From Sacculina carcini (lineage: Eukaryota; Arthropoda; Thecostraca; Sacculinidae), in the NCBI GenBank assembly GCA_916048095.2, contig OU696593.1, forward strand, positions 6,364,946 through 6,428,945: 64,000 nt of DNA, given 5' to 3'. The notes beneath the pieces were generated by a model. The model worked only from the letters and a program-made list of their open reading frames with translations, had not been told where the DNA came from and made no database searches. Of this stretch, positions 19,518-35,963 are shown piece after piece; position 1 is the stretch's first letter; each line of letters opens with the position of its first letter. The translations under genes and the position numbers were made by a program.

Positions 19518-22500
19518 TCACCAGTCAAGTATATCATCTGTGAGAGAGTGTTGTTGTTGTGACAGACTTGACATGACTTGTCTTGTCGCATCATTTGGTT
19601 GTTGTGAATTTTCTGACACAGCCGACCCTCTTCCTCCATCATCAAGATCATCATCAGTGTTCTCTGTCAGGCGACCAGCGCAAGCAGCATGAACGCTGTG
19701 CAAGTGGGCTCGGTGAGACTCGGCCCGAACAAACGTCAGACCACAGCGGTCGCACGAAAAGTTGGCTAGGTACTTGATCTTGCGTCCAGTCAACCTGCCA
19801 CCACGGCTGGGGCGATGTTTACCACGACCACCGACAGAGGGAGCTAGCAACACAAACATAAACACACACACACACACACACACACACACGTGTACGAATA
19901 CACAAAGATTCACATAGAAAAACGCCCATACACAAACACACAGATACATTTATAACGCAATTTTCACCCGAAGGTCTCAAAAGCATGAAACACACACACA
20001 CACACAACACAAACACACACACACACACACACACGAACACACACACACACACACACACAACACAAACACTGACACACACATACACAACACAAACACTGAC
20101 ACACACACACACACACAACACAAACACTGACACACACATACACAACACAAACACACACACACATAAAGCTGAACTGACCGCGAGTACGACCAGCGGTGGC
20201 TGAGTTATTATTGCTCGTGTGTGTCGCGTCATCGCTGGCATTGTCCTCATGTAAACGACGAATGTGCACACGTAGATTGGCTGCCACACACACACACACA
20301 TACATACAGTTATATATAAACACACACACACACACACATAGACACACACATAGACATGTACACACATTCACAAACAAACACACACATACATACATACTGA
20401 CACACATACATGCATACTGACAAACATACATACACACATACTGACACATACACACAGACACTGACACACACACGCATACAGTTATATATGAACACACACA
20501 CACACACACACACACACACACACACACACACATACAAGTGTAATACGTGCATGTGAGTGTGTTGCCCATGTGAAGTGTAATTGATTGCTGAACAGAGTTA
20601 TCAAATGGCTCTATTTCATGTGTGTGTGCGCGTGTGCGTATGTCAGTGTGTATGTGTCATTGTATGTCAGTATGTGTCAGTGTGTATATGTCAGTATGTG
20701 TCAGTGTGTATATGTCAGTGTGTGTACGTGTGTATCAGTGTGTGTGTGTGTGTGTGTGTGTGTCAGTCTGTGTCATTGTGTATGTGTCAGTGTGTGTCAG
20801 TGTGTATCAGTGTATGTCAGTGTGTATCAGTGCGTGTCGGTGTGTATCAATGTGTCAGTGTGTATCAGTGCGTGTCAGTGTGTATCAGTGTATGTCAGTG
20901 TGTGTCAGTGCGTGTCAGTGTGTATATGTCAGTGTGTATGTATCAGTGTGTCAGTGTGTGGCAGTGTGTATCAGTATGTCAGTATGTGTCAGTGTGTATA
21001 TGTCAGTGTGTATGTATCAGTATGTCAGTGTGTATGTTCACCAGTGTATGCCGTGGTGAAGGAACAATGAGGACAGGAGAATGGTTTTGAATCGGAGTGA
21101 GAGCGTCGATGTCGCACCAAATCACTGCCAGTCTTAAAAACACGACCACACACACCACAACGATATGGAGAATCACCTGCGACACACATACATATTAAAT
21201 ACACTCCATGCGGAAAGTGGACAAGGTGAGAAAACAGGTTTTGACATTAAAAGAAATTTCCCCGAATGAAAAACTGAAGATTGTAGCATCAGATAATAAG
21301 TCCAATAAGCGAAAATAAGAAGAAAATCATGAAGCTCATTAGGAACAAATAATTATCAGATACATTTTCAATGAAAAAGTGTATTAAACGCGATATATAT
21401 ATTAATACAGCAGAGTAGTAATTTGTAGAGAATTGTCCGTGCGACCTGTGTGTGTACGAAGATGAACATTGAGGCGATGCTGGGTTTTGGCGCTGTATGA
21501 ACAAATTTGACAACTGCACACACACAAACACACACACACACACATAAATGTGGCAGCAATAGAGACTTTGTCGTGGTGAAATTGCGAGTAGAACAGAACT
21601 TTCAAACACACCGCCCGCCAATATTATCAAAAATCCAACCGAAAAAATCATAGATAAATTCACATGTTCTACATAATGCGATTTAATTATAAAGTATTTA
21701 ATATATAATATTATCAGTTGTTCTGCATTTTGAAGCCAATTGCTTGATTTTTCTAGATTGATTAATTCTACACAATTAAATTTAACGATGATACGCCTGA
21801 TCATTGCAAGAAACACACACCTGATCATTGCAAGAAACACATATGTAATCATTGCAAGAAACACACATGTGATCATTGCAAGAAACACATATGTAATCAT
21901 TGCAAGAAACACACATGTGATCATTGCAAGAAACACATATGTAATCATTGCAAGAAACACACATGTGATCATTGCAAGAAACACACATGTGATCATTGCA
22001 ATAAATACGCGTGATCATTGCAAGACACACACACGTGAGCATTGCAAGACACACACATGTGAGCATTGCAAGAAACACACATGTGAGCATTGCAAGAAAC
22101 ACACGCCTAATCATTGCAAAAGACACACATGTGATCATTGCAATAAATACGCGTGATCATTGCAAGACACACACATGTGATCATTGCAAGAAACACACAT
22201 GTGATCATTGCAAGAAACACACATGTGATCATTGCAATAAATACGCGTGATCATTGCAAGAAACACACATGTGATCATTGCAAGAAACTCACACGTGATC
22301 ATTGCAAGAAACACACACCTGATCATTGCAAGAAACACACACCTGATCATTGCAAGAAACACACATGTGATAATTGCAAGAAACACACCTGATCATTGCA
22401 AGAAACACACATGTGATAATTGCAAGAAACACACCTGATCATTGCAAGAAACACACATGTGATCATTGCAAGAAACACACATGTGATCATTGCAAGAAAC

Positions 22501-35700: not shown

Positions 35701-35963
35701 TTTCACTCTCCCTTCTTCCTTCTCGCTTGCACGCTTTCTTCTTCTAATCTCTTTCTGTGTGCATTTGTTATTGAGTCTTGCCTTTCATCGTGCTTGATAG
35801 TCATTCTAGCTGCCCTCAGATGAGTAATAGAGACTGTGGTTATTGTTGAGCCGCCATCATATTACCACTGTTCAATGTCGACACTTTCCTCTCATATTAC
35901 CATTGTGTGTGTGTGTATGTGTGTGTGTATGTGTGTGTGTGTGTTTGACAGTTGATATCATGA
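29740..35963 (+). CDS. DEK: DEK chromatin protein (5' exon not located)
   Basis: DEK is a nuclear DNA-binding and histone-chaperone protein that shapes chromatin and splicing. Exons join in phase: 29740-30433, 30828-31036, 31445-31599, 32393-32528, 32875-33018, 33891-34061, 34881-35033 and 35952-35963, about 557 codons including the stop. The first exon holds an unusual 8-residue repeat. The DEK core follows: RRRRQVERLSL, the pseudo-SAP/SAP region with LRQFNGFPF and LDYLIHPTPSGR, Lys/Ser-rich basic exons, and the C-terminal DEK_C domain (LLEGANLEQVTMKNI, HDLTARKDFIKCVVKT). The last exon adds only LIS and the stop, matching the ELIS end of vertebrate DEK. The intron after 30433 would have a GC donor (GCTAGT); without it an in-frame stop follows at 30436. 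Introns carry TG tracts and transposon pieces. Confidence 0.9.
30027..30347 (+). repeat. Coding 24-bp minisatellite in DEK exon
   Basis: Thirteen or so copies of a unit close to GTCAATGACCCCGCTACATC plus AGAG encode VNDPATSE/VNEPATPE octapeptides. The reading frame is held by the 24-base unit. Copy-to-copy changes keep Val-Asn-Asp/Glu and vary Pro/Thr and Ser/Pro, so the protein carries an acidic, Pro/Thr-rich N-terminal extension. Confidence 0.9.
30649..30815 (+). repeat. Compound (TG)n-(CT)n-(AT)n-(TG)n microsatellite in a DEK intron
   Basis: A (TG)n run, a TCTCTC segment, about 39 AT units at 30703-30780, then (TG)n to 30816. The last (TG)n run ends 12 bases before the 3' splice site at 30827. 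Confidence 0.95.
32014..32290. mobile_element. hAT-like MITE in a DEK intron
   Basis: A 277-base element with imperfect terminal inverted repeats CAAGGGTTCCCCAACC and CAAAGGTTCCCAACC. The flanks GTCTTAAT and GTCTAAAC could be a decayed 8-base target duplication. The CAGGGGTTCCCAACC-type end is typical of hAT transposons. It has no coding capacity. Confidence 0.7.
33030..33115 (+). mobile_element. tRNA-like SINE head in a DEK intron
   Basis: Just after the DEK donor at 33018 lies a tRNA-like segment with box A (CAGTGGTGTAGAACG) and box B (GGGCTCGAAACC). The anticodon arm and acceptor stem pair poorly. A long (AC)n tract begins about 120 bases downstream. It differs from the SINEs at 18308 and 36988, so it may be another family or only a head fragment. 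Confidence 0.6.
33232..33703 (+). repeat. Pure (CA)n microsatellite, 472 bp, in a DEK intron
   Basis: About 236 uninterrupted CA units. Here the transcript-sense strand is (CA)n, opposite to the (TG)n tracts next to DEK splice acceptors. The assembled length may not be exact. Confidence 0.97.
34215..34660 (+). mobile_element. LINE fragments (L2/CR1-like) in a DEK intron
   Basis: Two copies of the tail TCTAGGTGTAGGGCGCTATA with TAATG short repeats end near 34272 and 34532. Between them 34290-34480 translates on the plus strand to LGVLLDDSFSFELYISDIIR and SIRRYLSVSAAFKLVY, typical of the reverse-transcriptase C-terminal region of L2/CR1-type LINEs. It is truncated at both ends and dead. Confidence 0.75.
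35095..35635 (+). mobile_element. 5'-truncated LINE (L2/CR1-like) in the last DEK intron
   Basis: The plus strand encodes the C-terminal tail of a LINE reverse-transcriptase protein: LGLLPIKALIDYRICLIIHS, then LRSTDDSRLLLEP, FSILGPRIYNKLSL and SITSIPVFKKHSFRNF. It ends with TCTAGGTGTAGGGCGCTATA and TAATG repeats, the same 3' tail as the copies near 34272 and 34532. The open frame of this piece is undamaged, so the insertion is not ancient. Confidence 0.8.

Follow-up and report, generated by a model that had tools for sequence, protein, structure and literature searches.

In most animals an intron ends in a U/C-rich polypyrimidine tract, which is among the best-conserved animal splice signals. 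We analyzed a stretch of 64,000 nucleotides (positions 6364946-6428945 of contig C26, hereafter the window) from a genome of 264.4 Mb in 43 contigs whose genes suggest an animal source, together with genes elsewhere in that genome, and found that the acceptor signal here is probably, at odds that we put at about 0.55, usually UG-rich instead. The evidence comes from 96 acceptors in 22 genes, namely, 23 in four genes of the window and, from two gene families, 33 in chaperonin (CCT) genes and 40 in myosin genes. Scoring repeats of at least three units, in the sense of the transcript, within 60 nucleotides (nt) of the acceptor gave 67 acceptors with TG, 3 with CA, and 26 with neither (sign test, p = 9.7e-17); by gene, 20 of the 22 were net TG, none was net CA, and two stood at zero. 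With at least 6 units the corresponding counts were 43, 1, and 52, and with at least 10 units 18, 1, and 77. An earlier note on this DNA had proposed that sense (UG)n tracts stand in for polypyrimidine tracts, with a TG over CA bias to be expected at acceptors genome-wide; beyond the window, this tally, donors without bias, and a steep fall-off of TG inside introns all agreed with that proposal.

The four window genes were rebuilt from the sequence and supplied 23 introns:

DEK, plus strand: nine exons and eight introns, with an open spliced reading frame ending in VKTLIS and a stop
Zinc-finger gene (ZNF), minus strand: six exons and five introns, its fingers recognized by eye
FARS2, minus strand: six exons and five introns
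GH9 cellulase, minus strand, 36.7-63.3 kb of the window: five acceptors modelled

Since the spliced proteins aligned with PDB chains, the junctions of FARS2 (mitochondrial Phe-tRNA synthetase, E = 1.8e-124), of the catalytic part of the cellulase (an endoglucanase chain, E = 9e-112), and of DEK from exon 3 on (DEK chains, E = 8.9e-36, covering the six junctions between exons 3 and 9) are supported. DEK introns 1 and 2 were defined by the open frame alone and the five ZNF introns by the open frame together with finger spacing. Because the PDB alignment showed a 7-residue excess at that point, the start of FARS2 exon 3 was set to 7625 rather than 7649; the 96-acceptor tally used 7625, and the donor tally, coverage profile, and pyrimidine-run counts used 7649. 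The large first exon of the cellulase is out of frame in the model, and only its 3' boundary entered the counts. The models required GT-AG or GC-AG ends, and 21 of the 23 introns were GT-AG and two were GC-AG (DEK intron 2 and GH9 intron 2). Both modelled GC donors, at 30434 and 61318, respectively, read GCTAGT; the usual GC donor is GCAAGT.

Chaperonin exons were located with the PF00118 profile, whose 53 matches formed 35 neighbouring pairs; one pair that could not be refined and one with a negative score were dropped, leaving 33 introns in 7 genes. Their boundaries are homology-based; the choice was guided by the reading frame, by continuity of the profile match, by the donor consensus, and by a preference for YAG (Y, pyrimidine), and the tract itself played no part in it. 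Window and CCT introns together form a set of 56 acceptors. For the myosin-head exons (PF00063), 40 of 82 matches, elsewhere in the genome, were picked by hand from their coordinates before the DNA was seen, the requirement being a clean start adjoining the preceding exon, and gave 40 acceptors in 11 genes; here the acceptor is the start of the match and hence approximate.

Within the window, repeats of at least five units lay within 60 nt of the acceptor in 15 of the 23 introns, 13 of them TG and 2 CA, leaving 8 with neither. TG accounted for seven of eight acceptors in DEK, four of five in ZNF (the fifth having three units), and one of five in each of the other two genes: in FARS2 the sole case precedes the exon starting at 1093, and the cellulase has one TG acceptor, one CA acceptor (exon 39623), and three with neither. 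At a threshold of three units, FARS2 and the cellulase each had 2 TG, 1 CA, and 2 with neither. The tracts, together with two further CA repeats in DEK introns, are the following (for plus-strand genes, the last intron and first exon positions are given):

29712..29733, plus strand: (TG)11 before DEK exon 2, acceptor 29739/29740
30788..30815, plus strand: (TG)14 before DEK exon 3, acceptor 30827/30828
31058-31071: (CA)7 near the donor of DEK intron 3, the intron before exon 4
31410..31437, plus strand: (TG)14 before DEK exon 4, acceptor 31444/31445
32327..32352, plus strand: (CA)13 before DEK exon 5, an exception, acceptor 32392/32393, with TG near the donor of the same intron
32833..32844, plus strand: (TG)6 before DEK exon 6, acceptor 32874/32875
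33232-33703: (CA)236, upstream in the same intron as the DEK exon 7 acceptor
33831..33870, plus strand: interrupted TG tract before DEK exon 7, acceptor 33890/33891
34853..34876, plus strand: (TG)12 before DEK exon 8, acceptor 34880/34881
35904..35943, plus strand: interrupted TG tract before DEK exon 9 (ending LIS-stop), acceptor 35951/35952
23395..23410, minus strand: sense (TG)8 before ZNF exon 2 (23381-23129)
21529..21544, minus strand: sense (TG)8 before ZNF exon 3 (21513-21446)
21182..21188, minus strand: short sense TGTGTGT before ZNF exon 4 (21176-21042)
20285..20300, minus strand: sense (TG)8 before ZNF exon 5 (20280-20179)
19863..19888, minus strand: sense (TG)13 before ZNF exon 6 (19843-19518)
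1111..1128, minus strand: sense (TG)9 before FARS2 exon 6 (starting at 1093)
38148..38231, minus strand: sense interrupted TG tract before a GH9 exon (38128-38024)
39673..39694, minus strand: sense (CA)11 before a GH9 exon (39623-39521), the second exception

In the seven DEK introns that the earlier note had singled out, the tract ends 5, 11, 6, 29, 20, 3, and 7 nt from the exon, and the exception before exon 32393 is CA, as the note had it, and lies 40 nt away. Its other cases, namely, all five ZNF acceptors (the one at 21177 with only three units), the cellulase acceptor at 38129, and TG after the FARS2 exon-4 donor, were likewise correct, but the FARS2 acceptors and most of those of the cellulase were missing from them. 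The note had also held that repeat abundance does not account for the sense orientation. This held as well, since plus-strand runs of at least six units are balanced in the window (36 TG and 34 CA). With donors also free of bias, we rejected genome-wide microsatellite abundance as the cause. Two window introns carry long sequences of other kinds. ZNF intron 2 is mostly filled by a minisatellite of about 24 bp resembling TTTCTTGCAATGATCACATGTGTG (window 21780-23125), and the 21.7-kb cellulase intron holds, by eye, frames resembling those of a long terminal repeat (LTR) retroelement (zinc knuckle, protease, reverse transcriptase, integrase) and a transposase-like frame at window positions 42441-46177 and 47984-49231.

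Donors of 76 exons had TG in 18 cases, CA in 13, and neither in 45, so that a bias like that at acceptors was not seen there. Moving upstream from the acceptor, TG coverage fell from.32 (0-30 nt) to.23 (30-60 nt),.14 (60-100 nt), and.07 (100-150 nt) and then remained at.04-.08, while CA coverage was.003,.020,.011, and.007 over the same intervals and.02-.06 beyond. Farther than 150 nt from the acceptor the difference between TG and CA is much smaller, which speaks against a general transcription bias as the cause. The TG repeat ended 3-39 nt upstream of the exon in 43 whole introns, and the signal faded past about -60 to -100. Genes of other contigs, unrelated to those of the window, show it too.

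Base composition showed that the signal is not made of repeats only. At positions -20 to -5, window acceptors had A.06, C.09, G.35, and T.50, and CCT acceptors had A.12, C.12, G.36, and T.40; positions -30 to -5 were much alike, and the commonest features next to the AG were G at -4, with a frequency of.52, and C at -3, with one of.73. As a rule, no pyrimidine-rich tract was found at -20 to -5 in these two sets, the mean pyrimidine content being.59 (window) and.52 (CCT) with C at.09-.12: at least 11 of 15 positions were pyrimidines in 5 of 56 acceptors, and at least 11 of 15 were G or T in 41 of 56. The 13 of 56 acceptors without a TG repeat of at least three units were still U/G-rich at -25 to -5 (C.165, G.288, T.392), and masking repeats throughout the 56-acceptor set left G at.277 and C at.158. 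Between -45 and -3, AG was rarer than GA, as expected if this zone is scanned. The density of CTRAY was 0.0009 at 20-40 nt and 0.0058 at 150-300 nt upstream, without enrichment in the last 100 nt, a comparison that base composition confounds.

Pattern counts over the whole genome, made without gene models, pointed the same way. In the reverse column of the counts, which we read as one count per GCAGG, (TG)6-N0-15-GCAGG occurred 1536 times versus 654 for (CA)6-N0-15-GCAGG; forward counts of the same patterns were 5458 and 2189, and reversed-pattern controls counted alike gave 200 (TG) and 293 (CA). In addition, (TG)10-N0-20-AG was 1.55 times as frequent as its reversed control in each of the two columns counted alike.

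Because of its position, the scanning-like depletion of AG, and its low C content, we take the tract to be a stand-in for the polypyrimidine tract. Since acceptors without a repeat are still U/G-rich, the polypyrimidine tract looks replaced by a UG tract and not merely invaded by microsatellites. The earlier note had left it at a genome that "uses, or tolerates" UG-based acceptor definition; of the two, "uses" fits better, since TG is several times denser at acceptors than inside introns and even repeat-free acceptors are poor in C. Mechanistically, the UG tract would act as the polypyrimidine tract does and would be bound by U2AF, a heterodimer whose large subunit, encoded by two diverged genes, keeps nearly all uracil-contacting residues; a TDP-43 or CELF homologue, or another protein that binds UG, may help. 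Once UG was accepted, microsatellite slippage would have been free to lengthen the tracts, and (CA)n in the same position would be selected against.

Several points weigh against a UG-rich acceptor signal as the usual state. More than a quarter of the acceptors (26/96) carry neither repeat, and TG use differs between genes (p = 0.0016), with 0 of 7 acceptors in the myosin genes on contigs C23 and C35, which look muscle-like by eye. The GCAGG counts are rough, as they include multi-copy repeats and their reversed control holds a CpG. A preference for UG is not predictable from the uracil-contacting residues of the U2AF2 sequences, and part of the pattern could come from a mutational bias by which T-rich acceptors turn into TG repeats. 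A rival explanation is passive tolerance, in which T-rich acceptors seed TG by slippage, sense TG is neutral, only CA is purged, and UG has no role of its own. TG/CA microsatellites are indeed common in the window and in the genome, tract lengths vary widely, and genes differ, all of which this explanation would accommodate. The density of TG in the last 30 nt is, however, about 4-7 times that found beyond 100 nt, for which removal of CA alone is insufficient; moreover, C stays low and G high when repeats are masked or missing, and a good pyrimidine run is kept in only 5 of 56 acceptors. We consider it unlikely that UG is passively tolerated.

The putative readers of a UG-rich tract are encoded at the following loci:

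C26:1032223-1033476, minus strand: U2AF2 copy, one open frame
C26:1035393-1036658, plus strand: U2AF2 copy, one open frame
C29:895365-895583, minus strand: TDP-43 N-terminal-domain match
C26:5886003-5886227, minus strand: TDP-43 N-terminal-domain match
C26:5886773-5886991, plus strand: TDP-43 N-terminal-domain match

The two U2AF2 genes are divergently transcribed, with frames of 424 and 430 aa. Their DNA is 98.3% identical over 413 bp of the C-terminal coding part, running past the stop, and 72-78% identical in the other two stretches that align, both of them in RRM sequence; the pair thus looks like a case of gene conversion of the C-terminal domain with the RNA-binding domains diverging. 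Thirteen RNA-contacting positions of U2AF2 are named in the available part of PMC4786784. In our alignments, 11 of the 13 (R146, Q147, N196, K225, R227, V254, D256, K260, F304, K329, and G338, in human U2AF2 numbering) are conserved in the two copies alike. Of the remaining two, K340 is replaced by R in each copy and T252 by D in the one on the plus strand. As nearly all contact residues are kept, both copies probably still read uracil. We rejected altered base contacts of U2AF2 as an explanation of the tract, with 11 of 13 contact positions unchanged and no change of specificity predicted.

Could another protein read the tract instead? A TDP-43 or CELF homologue dedicated to reading UG might bind it and recruit or position U2AF and the U2 small nuclear ribonucleoprotein, with U2AF2 itself not reading the tract. 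Part of what would mark acceptors of a TDP-43/CELF type was present, namely, UG tracts (67/96) and three encoded TDP-43 N-domain loci, two of which lie head to head, 545 bp apart. A work cited in PMC12276007 reports by its title that TDP-43 binds the TG repeats of CFTR intron 8, but there TDP-43 on UG beside the acceptor leads to exon skipping, an effect of the opposite sign, and we think a dedicated reader improbable. Far less probable still is a bridging of intron ends, in which base pairing between CA at the donor side and UG at the acceptor side draws the two ends together, as has been proposed for the AC/GT introns of fish and lamprey. Single introns fit this by eye, namely, ZNF intron 4 (before exon 5), whose donor half is CA-rich and acceptor half TG-rich, and DEK introns 3, 4 (reversed), and 6. 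CCT donors are also CA-rich in their first 60 nt (coverage.11-.13 for CA and.03-.08 for TG), and after CAGGTGAGT (CA)6 occurred 18 times versus 6 in a like-anchored reversed control, with (TG)6 at 16 versus 17, although these numbers are small. On the other side stand the donor repeats of the 76 exons, with TG ahead of CA; the raw genome counts after CAGGTGAGT, in which forward CA (18) and TG (16) are about equal; and a hand count of distinct CAGGTGAGT donors on both strands (CA 30, TG 38). Moreover, CA at the donor does not predict TG at the acceptor (Fisher, 0.42), (CA) of at least five units lies upstream of the tract in only 13 of 43 TG-acceptor introns, and the duplex energy of an intron's own ends (-36.66) hardly differs from that of swapped ends (-36.09), 34% of permutations being as low (52 introns). 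As a general rule, bridging is largely refuted by the donor tally and by these own-versus-swapped energies. Nor does a mobile element generally supply the acceptor. DEK introns 7 and 8 do share an element (window 34105-34275 and 35525-35640) made of a TG tract, CAG, a small hairpin, a GGGCGCTATATAAAT tail, and then TAATG/TG repeats, and tails of the GGGCGCTATATAAAT type had 8 matches in the window and further stretches of the genome (a count that includes overlapping loci and both strands), of which 6 had TG after the tail. Of 56 introns, however, only 2 held tail-like motifs in their last 160 nt, and none of 18 intron pairs sharing non-simple sequence shared any closer than 38 nt to the acceptor.

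Compared with these explanations, a UG tract serving as the usual acceptor signal accounts best for the data. A broader version, in which an animal lineage switched its default 3' splice-site code genome-wide from polypyrimidine to UG, with the duplicated U2AF2 (diverged RRMs, homogenized C terminus) and extra TDP-43 loci as co-evolved readers, is one that we put forward only tentatively. With its pair of U2AF2 genes and its three loci for a TDP-43 N domain, such a genome would be a natural system in which to study co-evolution of tract and reader directly.

Two further observations concern the protein families searched. The genome contains long uninterrupted frames (up to 2897 aa) with several protein-kinase domains each, clustered and often about 1386 bp apart (C20:3.26-3.46 Mb, C24:7.69-7.78 Mb, C31:0.015-0.087 Mb, C15:7.03-7.31 Mb, and others); the PF00069 matches listed were mostly whole domains in long single frames and hence of no use for introns. 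While other myosins of the genome have several exons, at C7:1241414-1243426 a single unbroken frame of 1059 aa encodes almost the whole myosin head (positions 2-679 of 679).

In the literature searched, we found no genome with UG-rich acceptors as the rule. If most acceptors use U/G, this part of the splicing code can drift, and gene prediction is affected, since exons of such genomes would escape programs whose acceptor models were trained on pyrimidine tracts. Closest in appearance are the AC/GT introns of fish and lamprey, whose AC and GT ends have been proposed to pair (Lin et al., as cited in the available part of PMC7404189). They share with the introns described here a GT-rich 3' end in the sense of the transcript (67/96 acceptors here), but in the present genome donors show no general bias towards AC, the two ends of an intron do not pair specifically with each other, and most of the acceptors sampled are UG-rich. 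Human introns in which UG lies near the acceptor generally keep their pyrimidine tract. In the human genome, according to the portion of PMC12276007 at hand, poly(UG) is enriched near splice sites, and the TG repeat of CFTR intron 8 has TDP-43 as its ligand. UG repeats close to acceptors are thus common to both, but in human they are an added feature of some introns, whereas here the tract itself is UG and low in C, which bears on why UG near the acceptor is harmful in CFTR yet apparently normal here. The fold formed by 12 or more UG repeats (pUG fold) is not the general rule among our acceptors, since only 18 of 96 reach even 10 TG units. In the tunicate Fritillaria borealis, as far as the accessible text of PMC13326754 goes, U2AF duplication accompanies altered 3' splice sites, and one U2AF2 copy has changed binding. 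A duplicated U2AF2 in a genome with unusual acceptor signals is found here too; the introns modelled here, however, are GT-AG (2 of 23 in the window being GC-AG), and it is the tract that has changed and not the termini. With the canonical U2-type introns of metazoans, finally, the present introns share GT-AG ends, mostly YAG acceptors, and an encoded U2AF2, and they differ in having a G/T-rich instead of a C/T-rich tract.

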